Source: Comamonadaceae bacterium
GTDB lineage: Bacteria; Pseudomonadota; Gammaproteobacteria; Burkholderiales; Burkholderiaceae_C
Reading direction: 5' to 3'
DNA length: 64,000 nt
Assembly (NCBI GenBank): GCA_014190675.1
Contig: BJGT01000007.1
Coordinates: 1-64,000, forward strand
Position numbers and translations under genes: made by a program. Under the pieces are notes generated by a model, which saw only the letters and a list, made by a program, of their open reading frames with translations, was not told the DNA's origin and searched no databases. Of this stretch, positions 2,383 through 45,421 are shown one piece after another. Numbering within the stretch: the first letter of the stretch is position 1; each line of letters begins with the position of its first letter.

Positions 2383-3168
2383 ATGACAAATTCCAAGCCT
2401 GTGGCGGTACTTGATTCTTTTGGGCTGCGGGGCCGGCGGGCACTGATCACCGGCTCTTCGGCAGGCATCGGCCTGGCGCTGGCGCGTGCCTTGGGGCAGG
2501 CCGGCGCGCAATTGGTTCTCAATGGGCGCGGTGCGGATAAGCTCACTGCCGCTGCGAATCTATTGCGTGCTGAAGGCCTGTCAGTCACCACGGCGCTGTT
2601 TGATGTCACCGATGCCGACGCGGTGGCCCGAAGTGTTGAAGCGCTGGAGCGAGCGGGTGCAGTGGATATTTTGGTCAACAACGCAGGTATCCAGATTCGT
2701 GGCCCGCTGCATGAATTTGCCCTGAGCGATTGGCAGACCCTGATGAAGACCAACCTGGACAGCGCCTTTTTGGTCGGTCAGGCGGTGGCGCGTCACATGA
2801 TTGCGCGCGGGCGCGGCAAGATCATCAATATTTGCTCTGTGCAGAGTGAGCTCGGCCGTCCCGGAATTGCGCCTTACACCGCCAGCAAGGGTGCGCTCAA
2901 AATGCTCACCAAGGGCATGGCCATCGACTGGGGCCCGCTGGGTCTGAATGTGAACGGCATCGGACCAGGCTACTTCAAAACCGAGCTCACTGAAAAATTG
3001 GCGGCAGATCCGCAGTTCACCAGTTGGCTGGTCGGGCGGACCCCAAGCCGGCGCTGGGGCGATGTCGAAGATCTGGGTGGGGCAGTGGTATTCTTGGCCA
3101 GCGAGGCCTCCCGATTTGTCAACGGCCATATTCTGTATGTCGATGGTGGCGTGACCGCCACATTGTGA
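2383..3168 (+). CDS. idnO: gluconate 5-dehydrogenase (SDR family)
   Basis: Interconverts 5-keto-D-gluconate and D-gluconate with NAD(P)H, cytosolic, 261 aa. Classical short-chain dehydrogenase features: TGSSAGIG cofactor motif near residue 22, NNAG, catalytic Ser about 152, and YTASK with Tyr165 and Lys169. The ATG at 2383 is chosen because the family N-terminus (LDSFGLRGRRALITG) follows; the frame is open upstream without homology. It ends 11 bp before the L-idonate dehydrogenase gene, the usual idnO/idnD partnership. SDR substrate choice is hard to read, so the specific name relies on context. Confidence 0.82.
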   Translation: MTNSKPVAVLDSFGLRGRRALITGSSAGIGLALARALGQAGAQLVLNGRGADKLTAAANLLRAEGLSVTTALFDVTDADAVARSVEALERAGAVDILVNNAGIQIRGPLHEFALSDWQTLMKTNLDSAFLVGQAVARHMIARGRGKIINICSVQSELGRPGIAPYTASKGALKMLTKGMAIDWGPLGLNVNGIGPGYFKTELTEKLAADPQFTSWLVGRTPSRRWGDVEDLGGAVVFLASEASRFVNGHILYVDGGVTATL

Positions 3169-3179
3169 GAGGACCAACC

Positions 3180-4232
3180 ATGCGTGCCCTGATTTGCCAT
3201 GCGGCCGAAGACCTCAGGCTTGAACACATCGAAACGCCCAGCCTGGGAGAGCAGCAAGTGCTAGTGCAGGTAGCTTTTGGCGGCATCTGTGGATCTGACC
3301 TGCATTACTACCAGCACGGCGGTTTTGGCACGGTGCGCATCAAGCAGCCGATGGCCCTGGGCCATGAGGTTTCGGGTGTTGTTGAGGCTGTGGGCGGCAA
3401 GGTCAACGGCCTGCAGGTCGGCCAACGCATCGCCATTTCCCCTTCCCGGCCCTGCGGGGGTTGCAAGTTTTGCCAGGCTGGGCAGCACAACCACTGCCTG
3501 TTTATGCGTTTTTACGGCAGCGCCATGCCTTTTCCCCACATCCAGGGCGCATTCAGCGAAAAACTGGTCATTGATGCCGGCCAGGCGCATGTCGTTGCGG
3601 ACCACCTGAGCCTGTCCGAGGCGGCCCTGGCAGAACCGCTGTCGGTTGGCCTGCATGCAATTGTGCGAGCGGGTGGCGTGCTGGGCAAGCAGGTGCTGGT
3701 GACTGGTTGTGGACCGATTGGGTCGCTGCTGATTGGCGCGCTTCGCCGCGCTGGTGCGGCGCGCATTGTTGCTGTTGACATTGCCGATTTGCCCTTGGCC
3801 TGCGCGACAAAAATGGGCGCAGACGAGACCATCAACTTGCGCGCCGATGCCCAGGGGCTGGATAAATACAAGGCTGACAAAGGCCAGTTTGACGTAGTTT
3901 TCGAAGCCTCAGGAAGCGCCGCTGCTGTGCTTGGCGCACTCGAGGTGATCGCACCACGCGGCGTGCTCGTGACTGTCGGGCTAGGAGGTGACATGAGCTT
4001 GCCGATGAACCAGATCGTGGCCAAAGAGGTGGACCTGCGGGGCACCTTCCGCTTTCATGCTGAATTTGCTACGGCCGTGCAGTTCCTCAACAGCGGCTTG
4101 ATCGATGGTCTGCCGGTGATCACTCAGGTGCTGCCCATGAGCCGCGCCTTGGAGGCCTTTGCGCTGGCGGCTGACAAAAGCCAGTCGCTCAAGGTGCAAA
4201 TAGCCTTCGAAGAAGAAATATCGGCGGCATGA
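3180..4232 (+). CDS. idnD: L-idonate 5-dehydrogenase (zinc-dependent MDR)
   Basis: Oxidises L-idonate to 5-ketogluconate, the substrate of the preceding SDR; 350 aa. Catalytic zinc ligands are visible as Cys37 in GGICGSD and His62-Glu63 in GHEVSG. The structural zinc site is CGGCKFC...C (Cys92, 95, 98, 106). A Rossmann motif (TGCGPIGSL) lies near residue 175. The ATG at 3180 follows an AGAGGA ribosome-binding site. It is probably the last gene of the sugar-acid operon. Related threonine or sorbitol dehydrogenases share the fold, but the adjacent idnO and gntK favour idonate. Confidence 0.88.
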   Translation: MRALICHAAEDLRLEHIETPSLGEQQVLVQVAFGGICGSDLHYYQHGGFGTVRIKQPMALGHEVSGVVEAVGGKVNGLQVGQRIAISPSRPCGGCKFCQAGQHNHCLFMRFYGSAMPFPHIQGAFSEKLVIDAGQAHVVADHLSLSEAALAEPLSVGLHAIVRAGGVLGKQVLVTGCGPIGSLLIGALRRAGAARIVAVDIADLPLACATKMGADETINLRADAQGLDKYKADKGQFDVVFEASGSAAAVLGALEVIAPRGVLVTVGLGGDMSLPMNQIVAKEVDLRGTFRFHAEFATAVQFLNSGLIDGLPVITQVLPMSRALEAFALAADKSQSLKVQIAFEEEISAA

Positions 4233-40293: not shown

Positions 40294-41375
40294 CCGCTTG
40301 CGCCCAGTTGGGCTGGGTTCGAGTCCTTGATCAGCCTGCGGGCGAGTTCGCTCATGGCCTGTGCGGAATGGTCTGCCGGGGAGAGCAGCACTGAAGCCTC
40401 AAACCCGGTGAAGTTGCGCTGCATCGACTGCAGATACACCGGGTCATAGTGCAGCGTCAGCAGTTCCTGCACCACGCAGGCAATTCGTCCGGCACGCACT
40501 GCGGCTTGCCAGCTCTCAACCTGGGCTCTGCCGCGAATCTCGCTGAGTGCCTGCAGGCGGTCGCAAAAGTGGGCCGTGTTTTCTACAAAAAATGCATAGT
40601 CTTCCATCAGCAAGGCTACCCGCTGCGCATCTGGCAGAGCCAGCCTGAAACAGGGGCTGCGCCGAATCGCTTCGATCAGAGCCGTGGGCACTGCAATATT
40701 GCCGACCTTCTTGCTCTCGCTCTCAATAAAAACCGGTCGCGCCGGATCGATCTGCCGCAGCGCATCCCAGATCAGGGTGTCAAACCGCTTTTGGCTGGGC
40801 TGCGCCAGGCCCGGAATGGCCCCCAGCACCGAACTGCGGTGGTTGGCCAAGGCCTCTAGGTCAATCACCTGCGCGCCGGCCTGAGCCAGCGCCTGCAGCA
40901 GCCGTGTTTTGCCCGAGCCAGTGGTGCCGCAGACCACGCGCCAGTCCAAGTTGGCCACACGGCGCTCGGTGTCGTGCACCACGACGGCGCGGAAGGCCTT
41001 GTAACCACCCTCCAGCAGTGTCACCCGAAAACCGATCTGGTCGAGGATCAGCGACAGCGAGCCGCTGCGCTTGCCGCCGCGCCAGCAATAGGTCAGTGGG
41101 CGCCACTCCTTGGCAGTGGTCAGCAACTCGCGCTCGATGTGGCTTGCTATGTTGCGCGCGGCCAGAGCGGCACCGCGTTTTTTGGCCTCGAACGGGTTGA
41201 CCTGCTTGTACAGCGTGCCGATGGCGTGCCGTTGGGCGTTGTTGAGTGTGGGCCAGTTCACTGCGCCGGGCAGGTGGTCTTGCGCGTACTCGTCTTCGCT
41301 GCGGGCGTCGATCACGGCGTCAAATTCGTGCAGCCGGCTGATCGCCTGCTCGGCGCTGAGGGTGGTCAGGCTCAT
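40290..41375 (-). CDS. mnmH: tRNA 2-selenouridine synthase
   Basis: Converts 2-thiouridine to 2-selenouridine at the wobble position of some tRNAs via a geranylated intermediate, using selenophosphate. 361 aa. N-terminal rhodanese domain with catalytic Cys97 in TYCWRGGKRSGSL, and a P-loop domain with CGTTGSGKT (150-158). The ATG at 41375 overlaps the tesA stop as ATGA, so it is translationally coupled to tesA. Activity presumes a selenophosphate synthetase (SelD) elsewhere. Confidence 0.93.
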   Translation of the reverse strand: MSLTTLSAEQAISRLHEFDAVIDARSEDEYAQDHLPGAVNWPTLNNAQRHAIGTLYKQVNPFEAKKRGAALAARNIASHIERELLTTAKEWRPLTYCWRGGKRSGSLSLILDQIGFRVTLLEGGYKAFRAVVVHDTERRVANLDWRVVCGTTGSGKTRLLQALAQAGAQVIDLEALANHRSSVLGAIPGLAQPSQKRFDTLIWDALRQIDPARPVFIESESKKVGNIAVPTALIEAIRRSPCFRLALPDAQRVALLMEDYAFFVENTAHFCDRLQALSEIRGRAQVESWQAAVRAGRIACVVQELLTLHYDPVYLQSMQRNFTGFEASVLLSPADHSAQAMSELARRLIKDSNPAQLGASG

Positions 41376-42031
41376 TTCAAAATTTTTCTCAGCGTTGGCC
41401 AAACATTTCCCAATATCATGGGATGGGCGGCCTCTGTCGGGTGGATGCGGTCGGCCTGGAAAAGCTGTGTTGGATCCGGTCCGTCGCTCACGCCGGCCAG
41501 CAGAAACGGCACCAGTGCAGCCTTGTTCGCCTTGGCCACCGCGGCAAACATTGCAGCGAAACGGTCGGCGTAGTCCCGGCCGTAGTTGGGCGGCACCTGC
41601 ATGCCCGCCAGCAGGACACTGGCGCCGGCTTTTTGAGCGGTTTGTGTCATTTGGCTCAGGTTGTCCTCGGTCAGGCTAAGCGGCAGGCCGCGCAGCGCAT
41701 CATTGCCGCCGAGTTCGATGACCACATGGCTAGGCCGGTGCTGGCTCAGCAGAGCGCCCAAACGCGAACGACCGCCTGAAGTGGTCTCGCCGCTGATGCT
41801 GGCATTGACCACGACCGCATCGAGCTTCTCGGCTTTGAGGCGAATCTCCAGCAGTGCCACCCAGCCGGTGCCGCGTTTGAGGCCATACTCGGCGCTCAGC
41901 GAATCGCCGAGCACCAGAATTTTCTGGTTTTTGGCGGGCGTGGTTACGGTGCTTGAAGTTGCCCAAGCCCCCATGGCAGTCCCAGCCAAGCCAAGCGCGA
42001 TAAAGTGTCGTCGGTCCAAAGAAAGTCCCAT
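41372..42031 (-). CDS. tesA: TesA-like SGNH esterase/arylesterase with Tat-like signal
   Basis: SGNH-hydrolase acting on acyl thioesters or aryl esters, 219 aa. Block I GDSLS (Ser44), block III GGNDAL, and C-terminal DRIHPTEAAH with Asp and His. The N-terminus carries LDRRHFIALGLAG and a hydrophobic stretch up to AWA, which looks like a twin-arginine signal, so export is likely. Its ATG (42031-42029) shares two bases with the ATG of the divergent ABC gene inside a CATG palindrome. Confidence 0.92.
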   Translation of the reverse strand: MGLSLDRRHFIALGLAGTAMGAWATSSTVTTPAKNQKILVLGDSLSAEYGLKRGTGWVALLEIRLKAEKLDAVVVNASISGETTSGGRSRLGALLSQHRPSHVVIELGGNDALRGLPLSLTEDNLSQMTQTAQKAGASVLLAGMQVPPNYGRDYADRFAAMFAAVAKANKAALVPFLLAGVSDGPDPTQLFQADRIHPTEAAHPMILGNVWPTLRKILK

Positions 42032-42704
42032 GTCTGATTCAATTATTTCGGTCGAGCATCTGTCCAAGTCGGTCACCGACTCCACCGGCACCCTTGACAT
42101 TTTGCGCGATATCGATTTTGCGCTGAAACCGCAGGAAACCGTGGCCATCGTCGGCGCGTCGGGCTCCGGAAAAAGCACACTGCTGTCGATCATGGCCGGC
42201 CTCGACACGCCCACCCGGGGCACGGTGCGGCTGGCCGGGCAGGACCTGTTCACCCTGGATGAAGACGCACGTGCCGGCCTGCGGGCGCAGCAAGTCGGGT
42301 TTGTGTTCCAGAGTTTCCAACTGCTGGGTAGCCTCAACGCGTTGGAAAACGTGATGCTGCCGCTGGAACTGGCCGGCCGGCGCGATGCCCGCCAGTCCGC
42401 CACCGCCATGCTGGGCCGGGTGGGGCTGGCCGAGCGGCTGCGCCATTACCCGCGAGTGCTCAGTGGTGGCGAGCAGCAACGCGTGGCCCTGGCCCGGGCT
42501 TTTGTGGTTCAGCCAGCGCTGCTGCTGGCCGACGAACCTACCGGCAGCCTGGATTTCGCCACCGGCGAAAAGGTGATGGAGTTGATGTTTGCCTTGAACC
42601 AGGAGCAGGGCACCACCCTGGTACTGGTCACCCACGATCGCGCCATTGCCAGCCGCTGCAGCCGTTGCATCACGATCGAGGCGGGTCGAGTTTTGGGCGG
42701 TTAG
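42030..42704 (+). CDS. ybbA: YbbA/LolD-type ABC transporter ATPase
   Basis: 224 aa ATPase. Walker A GASGSGKST near residue 42, Q-loop FVFQSFQLL, signature LSGGEQQRVALARA, Walker B LLLADEPTGSLD, and H-loop VTHD. It belongs to the MacB/LolD/YbbA group that drives outer-membrane-directed lipoprotein or mechanotransmission systems. Divergent from tesA as in many proteobacteria (tesA/ybbA). The large ybbP permease that usually follows is absent here; a palindromic spacer lies downstream. Confidence 0.92.
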   Translation: MSDSIISVEHLSKSVTDSTGTLDILRDIDFALKPQETVAIVGASGSGKSTLLSIMAGLDTPTRGTVRLAGQDLFTLDEDARAGLRAQQVGFVFQSFQLLGSLNALENVMLPLELAGRRDARQSATAMLGRVGLAERLRHYPRVLSGGEQQRVALARAFVVQPALLLADEPTGSLDFATGEKVMELMFALNQEQGTTLVLVTHDRAIASRCSRCITIEAGRVLGG

Positions 42705-42793
42705 CACGCGTTTTTGCCACCACTTTGGGTTGGGCTTTGGGGGCGCTGGTGCTGTTGTGGTTTGTGCATTGGTGTTTGGGCCATGTTTGTCGC

Positions 42794-42846
42794 GCTGCAG
42801 GGGCCGACTGCGTGCCACTGCTCGTGTTCCCCATCCTGCGGGAGTC
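42794..42846 (+). repeat. half copy of the first palindromic element
   Basis: About 53 nt that match the left stem and loop of the element at 42866 (first 15 bases identical, then GCGTG and CTGCTCGTGT shared, then CCTGCGGG), offset by 72 bp. It lacks the right stem, so it cannot form the long hairpin. Reads as a decayed or partial duplicate. Confidence 0.7.
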
Positions 42847-42865
42847 AGGGGGCCTTGGTTGGCAA

Positions 42866-42959
42866 GCTGCAGGGGCCGACGGCGTGTCGCTGCTCGTGTC
42901 CCCCCGCCCTGCGGGCTCCTTCCTTAACCTCGCTGCGACACGCCGTCGGCCCCTGCAGC
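42866..42959 (+). repeat. palindromic element 1: 25-bp perfect stem, 44-nt loop
   Basis: The arms 42866-42890 and 42935-42959 are exact reverse complements over 25 bp (left arm begins GCTGCAGGGGCCGACGGCG). The loop contains CCGCCCTGCGGGCTCC at 42904-42919. The structure resembles a REP-like or terminator-like intergenic element; family membership would need a genome-wide search. Confidence 0.85.
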
Positions 42960-43062
42960 AGGCCAGGGGTTGGCGCAACAGCTACAGGTAAACCAGTACA
43001 TCGTTACACCGGTGATTGGCGACGCCCCTGACTCTTTGCACTGTGCACCAACCACAGTGCCA

Positions 43063-43156
43063 GATCAGGCCGGTGGGGCGTTCGGCGCAGCGGCATCAAG
43101 GGGGAGCCCGCAGGGCGGAGGACAGCCGCGGAGCCGAATGCCCCACCGGCCTGATC
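43063..43156 (-). repeat. palindromic element 2: 24-nt stem with one G-T pair, 46-nt loop
   Basis: Arms 43063-43086 and 43133-43156 are complementary at 23 of 24 positions, the exception being a G opposite T (43080/43139). The stem sequence (ATCAGGCCGGTGGGGC start) is unrelated to element 1. The loop, read on the minus strand, contains the same 16-nt core CCGCCCTGCGGGCTCC (43118-43103) and then CGCTGCG, as in element 1. Confidence 0.85.
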
Positions 43157-43226
43157 CCGCAACCAAATCCACAAGCACAACGACAAATCCCAAACCGCCA
43201 CCCGCCGCTGGCTCAGAAGGGGATAC

Positions 43227-44777
43227 TCAGTTCGCCTTAACCGCGATCCCCTTGAATTCGCCACTGGCGATACGCTTTTGCCACTCGGCCGGGCCGGTGA
43301 TGTGGGCGCTGGTGCCACCGGCATCCACCGCCACTGTGACTGGCATGTCGACCACGTCAAACTCGTAAATGGCTTCCATGCCCAGGTCGGCAAAGCCCAC
43401 CACGCGGGCGCTCTTGATGGCCTTGCTGACCAGGTAGGCGGCGCCGCCCACGGCCATCAGGTAGGCGCTCTGGTGCTTGCGGATGGCCTCGATCGCCACC
43501 GGGCCGCGCTCGGCCTTACCAATCATGGCGATCAGGCCGGTGTCGCGCAGCATCATCTCGGTGAAGCCGTCCATCCGGGTGGCAGTGGTGGGACCGGCCG
43601 GCCCCACGGCCTCGTCTTTGACCGGATCGACTGGCCCGACGTAGTAGATGACCCGGTTGGTGAAATCCACCGGCAGCTTTTCCCCGCGTGCCAACATGTC
43701 CTGGATGCGTTTGTGCGCAGCATCGCGGCCGGTCAGCATCTTGCCCCTAAGCAGCAGGGTGTCGCCGGGTTTCCAGCTCGCCACTTCCTGCGGTGTAAGC
43801 GTGTCGAGATTGACCTTGCGGCTCTTGACATAGTCGGGCGTCCAGGCCACGTCGGGCCACAGGTCGAGCGAGGGCGGGTCTAGGTAGACCGGGCCGCTGC
43901 CATTGAGCACAAAGTGGGCGTGGCGCGTGGCGGCACAGTTGGGGATCATGCCCACGGGCTTGCTGGCCGCATGGGTGGGGTACATCTTGATTTTCACATC
44001 CAGCACCGTGGTCAGGCCGCCCAGGCCCTGGGCCCCGATGCCCAGCGCATTGACCTTCTCGAACAGCTCCAGGCGCAGGGCCTCGGTCTGGTTCAGTACG
44101 GCACCTGCGGCAGCCTTGGCCTGCAGCTGGTACATGTCCAGGTCCTCCATCAGGCTCTCCTTGGCCATCAACACCGCTTTTTCGGCGGTGCCGCCAATGC
44201 CGATGCCCAGCATGCCAGGCGGGCACCAGCCCGCGCCCATGGTGGGCACGGTCTTGAGCACCCAGTCCACCACCGAGTCGCCCGGGTTGAGCATCACCAG
44301 TTTGCTTTTGTTCTCGCTGCCGCCACCCTTGGCGGCCACGGTCACCTCCAGCGTGTCGCCGGGCACGATTTCGGTGAAGATCACCGCCGGTGTGTTGTCC
44401 TTCGTGTTCTTGCGGGCGAACTCGGGGTCGGCCACGATGCTGGCGCGCAAGGTGTTGTCCGGGTGGTTGTAGGCGCGGCGCACGCCTTCATTGATGGCGT
44501 CATCCAGCCCACCGGTGAAGCCATCCAACCGCACATTCATGCCGAGTTTGAGGAACACGTTGACGATGCCGGTGTCCTGGCAGATCGGCCGGTGGCCGGT
44601 GGCGCTCATCTTGCTATTGGTGAGGATCTGCGCGATGGCGTCTTTGGCCGCCGGGCTCTGCTCACGCTCGTAGGCGCGGGCGAGGTGGGCAATGTAGTCG
44701 GCCGGGTGGTAGTAGCTGATGTACTGCAGGGCAGCAGCGACGGATTCGATCAGATCAGCTTGGCGGATGGTGGTCAT
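43227..44777 (-). CDS. fumA: fumarate hydratase class I (Fe-S)
   Basis: Iron-sulfur fumarase of the TCA cycle, single-chain form, 516 aa. Cysteines that would bind the [4Fe-4S] cluster: Cys66 in PICQDTG, Cys185 in GAGWCPPGM and Cys281 in MIPNCAATRH. KGGGSENKSKL and GPTTATRMDGF are family stretches. ATG 44777 gives MTTIRQADLIES; an upstream TTG at 44786 is open but less likely. It is separate from the sucAB-lpd genes but serves the same cycle. Confidence 0.96.
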   Translation of the reverse strand: MTTIRQADLIESVAAALQYISYYHPADYIAHLARAYEREQSPAAKDAIAQILTNSKMSATGHRPICQDTGIVNVFLKLGMNVRLDGFTGGLDDAINEGVRRAYNHPDNTLRASIVADPEFARKNTKDNTPAVIFTEIVPGDTLEVTVAAKGGGSENKSKLVMLNPGDSVVDWVLKTVPTMGAGWCPPGMLGIGIGGTAEKAVLMAKESLMEDLDMYQLQAKAAAGAVLNQTEALRLELFEKVNALGIGAQGLGGLTTVLDVKIKMYPTHAASKPVGMIPNCAATRHAHFVLNGSGPVYLDPPSLDLWPDVAWTPDYVKSRKVNLDTLTPQEVASWKPGDTLLLRGKMLTGRDAAHKRIQDMLARGEKLPVDFTNRVIYYVGPVDPVKDEAVGPAGPTTATRMDGFTEMMLRDTGLIAMIGKAERGPVAIEAIRKHQSAYLMAVGGAAYLVSKAIKSARVVGFADLGMEAIYEFDVVDMPVTVAVDAGGTSAHITGPAEWQKRIASGEFKGIAVKAN

Positions 44778-44818
44778 GGGGTGCAAATCCTGCGTAGTTG
44801 GTTGGGCTTGGGCCGCGC

Positions 44819-45421
44819 TCAGTGGTCTTGTTCCGATAGCCGAATCATCAGTTTATCCGTGTAGGCAATGGCGATGGCCGACAACAAAAAAGTGATGTGT
44901 ATGGCGGTTTGGGCGATCAGAACCTTGTCCGCGTAATTGGCAGCGTTGATGAAGGTTTTGAGCAGGTGGATGGAGCTGATGCCAATGATGGCCGTGGCCA
45001 GTTTGACCTTGAGCACCGAGGCGTTCACATGGCTGAGCCACTCAGGTTGGTCTGGGTGCCCTTCAAGATCCATACGGCTCACAAAGGTCTCGTAGCCCCC
45101 CACAATCACCATGATCAGCAGGTTGGAAATCATCACCACGTCGATCAGTGCCAGTACCACCAGCATGATGATGGTCTCATTGAGCGAAGTCGTGATCGTG
45201 GTCTCTTTGTAGCCAATGCTGGAGATCAAGGCTTGCAAGGCGGTCTGGCTGCCAAAGGCCGCCTCGAGCAGGTGAACCAGCTCCAGCCAAAAGTGAAACA
45301 CATACACCCCCTGCGCCGCGATAAGGCCTATGTACAGGGGCAGCTGCAACCAGCGGCTGGCAAAAATAAAGGCGGGCAGGGGTCGCAGACGGTGGGGTTT
45401 TTTGGCGGCGTTGGGCATCAT
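44819..45421 (-). CDS. YqhA/UPF0114-family inner membrane protein
   Basis: 200 aa integral membrane protein with about four hydrophobic helices: LQLPLYIGLIAAQGVYVFHFW, IIMLVVLALIDVVMISNLLIMVIVGGYETFV, KLATAIIGISSIHLLKTFI and IAQTAIHITFLLSAIAIAYTDKL. The GGYETFVSRMDLEGHPDQPEWLSHV stretch is typical of the UPF0114 (YqhA) family, whose role is unknown. Two adjacent ATGs (45421 or 45418) begin it. About 40 bp before the fumarase start, same strand, so possibly cotranscribed. Confidence 0.85.
   Translation of the reverse strand: MMPNAAKKPHRLRPLPAFIFASRWLQLPLYIGLIAAQGVYVFHFWLELVHLLEAAFGSQTALQALISSIGYKETTITTSLNETIIMLVVLALIDVVMISNLLIMVIVGGYETFVSRMDLEGHPDQPEWLSHVNASVLKVKLATAIIGISSIHLLKTFINAANYADKVLIAQTAIHITFLLSAIAIAYTDKLMIRLSEQDH

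Follow-up and report, generated by a model that had tools for sequence, protein, structure and literature searches.

The hairpin family described here has its closest likeness in the REP, BIME, and REPIN elements, which are also small dispersed palindromes that occur as inverted pairs in intergenic regions, 3' of genes. The title of one study names GTAG and CGTC as tags of REP elements (PMC3733652). The present family is BIME-like in its placement and pairing, but its 24-bp stems are free in sequence and enclose an internal loop that is conserved, it shows no association with the RAYT transposase, and among the aligned copies listed no terminal GTAG or CGTC tag is visible by eye at either the outer or the inner ends.

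Single-stranded DNA that acts through its fold offers further parallels. The attC site of integrons is a folded single-stranded DNA hairpin with a preferred strand, and it is recognized more by structure than by sequence. The hairpin family would resemble attC in all of these respects, but its conserved part is an internal loop placed inside a long stem, and no integrase, cassette array, or core site was noticed alongside it. Another parallel is the promoter of the phage N4 virion RNA polymerase, described as a hairpin of DNA, closed by a C-G pair over a G..A loop, that is extruded by supercoiling, differs between strands, and has non-conserved stem bases that are free provided that they pair (PMC4496689). 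In contrast to the hairpin family, the N4 promoter hairpins are described as short, few in number, and read by a phage polymerase, and they are not a dispersed paired repeat (PMC4496689).

The nearest published repeat is the Beta-proteobacterial repeat element, BRE (Hot et al. 2011), which is described as being about 90 bp long, sometimes conserved over just 40-60 bp, usually intergenic, and present in Rhodoferax, Polaromonas, Acidovorax, Delftia, and Bordetella (PMC3110155). Judged by title and abstract, nothing else among the open-licence papers listed was recognizable as the hairpin family, and passages from papers on bacterial palindromic repeats name no Comamonadaceae family.

The window carries one inverted pair of hairpins

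The window is the whole stretch of 64,000 nucleotides of Comamonadaceae DNA that was analyzed. The original prediction placed in it two stem-loops with unrelated stems around the same 16-nt loop core, and both hairpins have the coordinates and anatomy given there, to the base (Table 1). Hairpin A has a perfect 25-bp stem and a loop of 44 nt; the stem of hairpin B has 24 pairs, including one G-T, and its loop is 46 nt long. The predicted shared core, CCGCCCTGCGGGCTCC, is exact in both loops and has no other exact occurrence in the window, the remaining five matches carrying 3 mismatches, which is approximately the level obtained from shuffled sequences. We refer to the strand carrying GGAGCCCGCAGGGCGG as the sense strand; it is the minus strand for hairpin A and the plus strand for hairpin B. 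Going beyond the earlier claim, A and B are the halves of one inverted-pair unit. Its spacer exceeds the 35-63 nt of six of the eight other A/B units in the genome (the remaining two have 42 and 89 nt).

Table 1. Features at the hairpin locus (positions in the window).
Feature	Position	Strand	Details
ABC transporter ATPase ORF (upstream neighbor)	41661-42704	+	best NCBIfam matches YbbA and LolD, both below cut-offs; first ~120 residues not covered by the match
Decayed, incomplete duplicate of hairpin A (outer part)	42778-42832	-	84% alike over 55 nt; 72 bp upstream
Hairpin A (element 1)	42866-42959	-	arms 42866-42890 and 42935-42959; loop 42891-42934; model R1, 110.3 bits
Core in A	42904-42919	+	
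Tip hairpin of A	42906-42916	-	GCCC-GCA-GGGC read on minus; C-GNA-G triloop
Spacer between A and B	42960-43062		
Hairpin B (element 2)	43063-43156	+	arms 43063-43086 and 43133-43156; loop 43087-43132; model R1, 111.1 bits
Core in B	43103-43118	-	
Tip hairpin of B	43106-43116	+	GCCC-GCA-GGGC; C-GNA-G triloop
Fumarate hydratase gene (convergent downstream neighbor)	43227-44786	-	

At the same site in the closest relative (G458), both neighbor genes flank the two hairpins. There, A and B lie approximately 2 kb apart (L367, G458 C24:1-2700; L368, G458 C22:1-700), three ORFs of 283, 243, and 132 amino acids are found between them, the outer part of the 5' arm of B is lost, and a contig break falls inside B. 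Among the relatives for which both sides of the site were listed, the neighbor genes either do not share a contig or are separated by more than 100 kb, and no clean empty site was seen.

The pair belongs to a large family

The genome as a whole contains 15 exact copies of the 16-nt core, compared with none of a reversed control pattern. In each of the 14 distinct copies that were folded, the core lies within a long hairpin, and the stems fall into three kinds (A, B, and C) or more. Paired flanks thus accompany the core elsewhere too, and the search of the genome and its relatives that had been proposed returned many intergenic copies whose stems differ yet are self-complementary; the core is by no means confined to the window. 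Fifteen copies were aligned with MAFFT (alignment A1), the stem register being the one that gives most pairs, and a covariance model, R1, was built from this alignment. R1 detected at least 39 places in the genome at E <= 0.01, with 150 of 5120 first-look candidates scored; one of these places is the antisense of hairpin A. Applied to stretches taken from the window's genome, it gave 41 matches at E <= 0.1, or 38 after three antisense rows were removed. Another model, R2, was built from 48 copies from other genera (alignment A3).

In the GTDB family to which the window belongs, 59 of 150 genomes have matches at E <= 1e-4, and copy numbers in these genomes are lower bounds because 24 candidates were scored per genome. 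Matches become sparse further out: 13 of 300 genomes in the order (5 in family f1, 6 in f13, and 2 in f21) and 5 of 369 in the class (two in f1, two in f63, and one weak match in f142). The weak f142 match (L376, 1501-1603) is a palindrome without the AAGGAGGAG and GGACA blocks. Genomes with names supplied at least 80 loci, nearly all from Comamonadaceae and other Burkholderiales; the genera listed include Variovorax, Hydrogenophaga, Rhodoferax, Ramlibacter, and Rubrivivax, as well as Sulfurisoma and one Pseudoxanthomonas. The last is a gammaproteobacterium, Pseudoxanthomonas sp. NC8, with a full minus-plus pair (L194, 2062-2398), which suggests horizontal spread. A single 73-base query matched no phage record and no E. 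coli genome but did match three plasmid records, all of them Variovorax replicons of over 1 Mb, and an exact-pattern search of IMG/VR matched one contig end. The inverted hairpin pairs are a real, large, structure-conserved family, the putative function of which is discussed below.

Whether this family is BRE is a question of naming that is compatible with any mechanism; the comparison is one of published descriptions, on which the two may or may not be the same. The original prediction stated that such elements are not described to its author's knowledge, and on this point the published BRE, as described, may be the same family (PMC3110155). We regard the identity as possible but doubtful. 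The size of about 90 bp, the intergenic position, and the presence of Comamonadaceae among the hosts agree with it, but BRE is described as a tandem repeat (VNTR) (PMC3110155), whereas the hairpin family forms inverted pairs, 40:1. Moreover, R2 gave one match in 250 genomes of the family presumed to hold Alcaligenaceae, and no element was found at ten-plus lexA loci of that family, which may include Bordetella. The single match (L350, 1501-1590) is weak, at 33.9 bits; this long palindrome has TCAAGGAGGAG and a GCGAAGC tip in common with the hairpin family, of which it is possibly a remote relative. One of the lexA loci (L361, 735-961) carries two nested perfect inverted repeats of 27 and 24 nt that are not of this family.

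Stem pairing is maintained and wobble pairs favor one strand

The proposal that pairing of the stem, not its sequence, is maintained was borne out by strong covariation in both alignments. In A3, which was fitted to R1 and therefore leans towards it, pairing holds in 94.8% of cells and two-sided change is seen in 29 of 32 pairs. Its covariation score of 0.800 compares with 0.200 in shuffled alignments, none of 500 of which scored as high, and slid controls did not exceed 0.141. The MAFFT-based alignment A1 scores 0.585 versus 0.203, with 19 pairs changed on both sides, and its further pair types do not exceed those of shuffles (40 versus 39.0; 228 of 500).

Departures from Watson-Crick pairing are strongly asymmetric. 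Read on the sense strand, the outer 23 pairs have G-T and A-C in a ratio of 84:6 in 38 copies from the window's own genome (43 other mismatches), 96:1 in the 48 copies from other genera (23 others), and 226:12 in alignment A4 (66 others; 113 of 117 rows used, four antisense or weak rows having been removed), these counts not being independent because the three sets share some organisms and the copies are related. Copy by copy, G-T exceeds A-C in 94 of the 113 rows of A4 and falls below it in 2. A neutrally decaying palindrome should yield G-T and A-C in equal measure.

Compensatory change is also seen at fixed sites, where some units have stayed at one operon position across genera. Another pair, the E/F unit, sits in a carboxylase operon between a carboxyltransferase gene (best NCBIfam match mmdA, below cut-off) and a biotin carboxylase gene (above the NF006367 cut-off). 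Both flanks of this site are homologous in L091, L047, L052, L055, L133 (Hydrogenophaga), and L184 (Rhodoferax), and one flank only in L058. Among 20 regions with this site from the window's genus, hairpin E is present in 9 (with F in 4 of them) and neither is present in 11, the empty ones being judged by eye; in six of the latter the gap measures exactly 20 bp. An empty gap does not align with an occupied one at this operon, and no junction or target duplication can be read there. The 15 copies of E have 307 Watson-Crick, 27 G-T, 4 A-C, and 7 other pairs, with two-sided Watson-Crick changes at 12 of 23 pairs; the 11 copies of F (including that in L058) have 218, 28, 0, and 7, respectively, with such changes at 16 of 23 pairs. 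Pairing reaches 96.8% in E and 97.2% in F, compared with at most 91.9% and 85.4%, respectively, in 2000 shuffles. Five other orthologous site pairs, with eight hairpins, add 30 compensated pairs, 13 changes to or from G-U, and 8 broken pairs; two site pairs were left out of this comparison, L054/L176 because they are identical and L049/L171 because their match lies away from the unit. F at the carboxylase site is of more than one sequence type, and replacement by gene conversion is a possible alternative source of compensatory change at fixed sites.

A conserved internal loop with covarying non-canonical pairs

The CGCTGCG tail corresponds, on the complementary strand, to a portion of a longer block that is conserved. 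On the sense strand of the wider family this block reads GCAGCGA(A/G)(A/G)T(A/C)AAGGAGGAG, followed by the tip hairpin and then by CGGGGGACA...GCGGAG. The variable positions of the facing GGNGG strands, readable in 177 of 196 distinct copies, are A/G in 148, G/A in 16, A/A in 8, C/G in 4, and G/G in 1. The inner helix takes the forms AAA/TTC (68), AAG/TGA (37), GCA/GCC (24), and AGG/CGA (22), plus rarer ones; tandem G-A pairs thus interchange with Watson-Crick pairs, and the non-canonical inner pairs covary. Mimicry of a Shine-Dalgarno sequence by AAGGAGG in the loop was considered and dropped because the middle letter varies. The two GGNGG strands could possibly form a G-quadruplex.

The tip is 5-63 nt long, with 102 distinct sequences in the 191 of 209 copies that fit the pattern. 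The cut that yields 103 distinct tips assigns a triloop to 78 of them, a tetraloop to 19, and a larger loop to 6. C-GNA-G triloops account for 51 of the 103 (GCA 29, GAA 15, and GTA 7). Hairpins outside the elements have triloops in 336 of 1191 cases, of which C-GNA-G makes up 8 on the strand read and 16 on either strand, a control that is incompletely matched because the background stems have at least 6 bp and the tip stems at least 2. The complementary loop on the antisense strand is not of the C-GNA-G kind. DNA mini-hairpins that combine a GNA loop with two or more G-C pairs are described as having extraordinary stability (PMC4686876), and in N4 promoter hairpins the C-G closing pair and G..A loop are described as required for supercoil-driven extrusion (PMC4496689).

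Pairs lie downstream of genes at unrelated sites

Of the 80 named loci, eight short ones were omitted, and R2 gave 117 matches in the other 72. Neighboring matches within 1 kb of each other in these loci are minus-plus in 40 cases and plus-minus in 1, after removal of three antisense rows, and 31 loci have a single match. Same-strand neighbors are absent from the named loci and occur a few times in the window's genome (e.g., L089 and L090). All sets together contain 68 minus-plus units with close ends, with L066 and L151 as opposite cases. Spacers within units are mostly 42-52 nt and vary by subfamily. The widest pair (L054/L176) has 625 bp between model ends, encloses an ORF, and reads as two single hairpins.

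The nine A/B units of the genome are 70-97% alike over the pieces aligned by BLAST, and their flanks, compared 90 and 40 nt away, show no similarity except for one stretch between two units on the same contig; the units have therefore been dispersed to unrelated sites. In this respect the earlier suggestion of a mobile palindromic family stands in part, as does structural conservation, which it had attached to a structured RNA; the folded species is, in our reading, more probably DNA than RNA, for the reasons discussed below. Positions 2770-3626 of locus L078 hold a nucleotidyltransferase gene followed by a HepT-like gene, likely a toxin-antitoxin pair, with an A/B unit on one side and a lone B hairpin on the other.

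Placement relative to genes was determined with a simple codon-usage gene finder trained on the window, and places near locus ends were omitted. Of the 97 intergenic places between two genes, 28 lie between convergent and 6 between divergent genes, compared with 89 and 72, respectively, of 514 gene pairs in the same loci; four further units fell inside an ORF call. Units lie at a median of 62 bp after a stop codon (range -18 to 1564; n = 119).

The folded strand: DNA or RNA

The observations from which we argue are the family itself, its covariation, strand asymmetry, and pair geometry, its position after genes, its dispersal, and the compensatory changes at fixed sites. The best explanation in our view, one on which we are evenly divided, is a dispersed inverted-pair repeat with a strand-specific fold, the selected form of which is folded DNA. 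Each half comprises a stem of approximately 24 bp whose sequence is free, an internal loop that is conserved and purine-rich, with tandem G-A or Watson-Crick pairs, and a short hairpin at the tip, which most often has a C-GNA-G triloop. The sense strand would fold when single-stranded, during replication or repair, or when extruded under supercoiling, with the tip nucleating its folding. A putative structure-reading protein may recognize the internal loop, whereas the stem would merely have to pair. The unit would have spread as a non-autonomous element, presumably by transposition, and would be tolerated or kept just downstream of genes, much like REP/BIME elements.

That the folded species is a DNA strand has about even odds in our view, ahead of RNA. 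DNA is favored because the C-GNA-G loop is ultra-stable in DNA, and these tips, taken with the wobble asymmetry, therefore suggest that it is the sense strand that folds, as DNA. Against this, since the halves are sense on opposite strands, one folded strand would never show both in the favored form. With DNA energy parameters, the sense strand is favored over the antisense strand in B (-42.0 vs -37.6) but not in A (-42.5 vs -42.7). Also against folded DNA, a structured RNA would likewise tolerate G-U, contain tandem G-A pairs, and undergo compensatory change in place, and the finding of no recognizing protein or mobilizer for the hairpin family counts against it as well. None of ten neighbor proteins scanned indicates an autonomous copy with a transposase; eight belong to ordinary families and two to no family.

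The alternative that fares best is a structured RNA family, in which the sense-strand transcript of each half, as a small hairpin RNA or a processing or stability element, would be under selection. The tolerance of G-U on one strand, together with covariation, is what such an RNA predicts, and the position shortly after stop codons would suit it. RNA energy parameters favor the sense strand of both window hairpins (kcal/mol, sense vs antisense: -73.6 vs -68.9 in A and -71.8 vs -67.5 in B; sense-strand z -11.1 and -8.9, respectively, from 200 dinucleotide shuffles). If BRE is the same family, a transcript of about 70-80 nt described at a BRE locus, encoded on the strand that neither flanking gene uses, would also fit (PMC3110155). 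On the other hand, single copies between co-directional genes are sense in 12 cases and antisense in 10, which disfavors a role inside the host mRNA, although some apparent single copies may be pairs with an undetected partner. The tips are mostly C-GNA-G triloops, with GNRA tetraloops in 3 of 103, and include very short ones such as GCGAAGC; no promoter-like conserved block is visible by eye in the spacers; and no Rfam family reaches its gathering score in positions 41000-45000 of the window, the best matches being far below. We therefore consider structured RNA unlikely, though a serious competitor to folded DNA.

It is also conceivable that the stem has no function and that replication template-switching keeps the arms matched, the core being a conserved remnant. 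Template-switch correction of quasi-palindromes gives two-sided changes without selection, and the stems are indeed near-perfect palindromes. However, this process predicts no strand bias, contrary to the excess of G-T over A-C in alignment A4, and it could not produce the A-G/G-A/C-G and tandem G-A swaps of the inner part or the C-GNA-G tips, so we consider it improbable.

Mobilization as a REP/BIME family by the genome's RAYT (Y1) transposase would account for inverted pairs near gene ends and is compatible with a Y1 protein in 112 of 150 genomes of the family, but it is largely refuted and highly improbable, as Y1 is equally common in genomes without the element (66 of 91) and with it (46 of 59; Fisher p 0.56, from two genome tables crossed by hand), none of 31 Y1 loci carries the element, and G020, with 21 scored copies, has no Y1 match. 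The single Y1/RAYT gene of the window's genome (L016, G000 C22) is flanked by its own short AATTGGGGTCAGATTCCAATT-like repeats, which are unrelated to the hairpin family.

Implications

Returning to folded DNA, the fuller reading is a chromosomal single-stranded DNA fold with RNA-like anatomy that would be read by a dedicated, putative protein, its inverted pairs marking gene ends in many Comamonadaceae genera and some other proteobacteria; we put this forward tentatively, as somewhat less probable than the folded strand itself. Covariation is usually read as evidence of RNA structure; in this family it is accompanied by a tip loop known for its stability in DNA, and no bias towards the host transcript is visible. 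The family is abundant, is easily found with a covariance model, and occurs in genera that have been cultivated, Variovorax and Hydrogenophaga among them. It thus makes it possible to test directly whether selection can act on chromosomal DNA as a folded strand, and if a protein reads the loop, that protein would represent a new structure-specific DNA-binding or recombination system.
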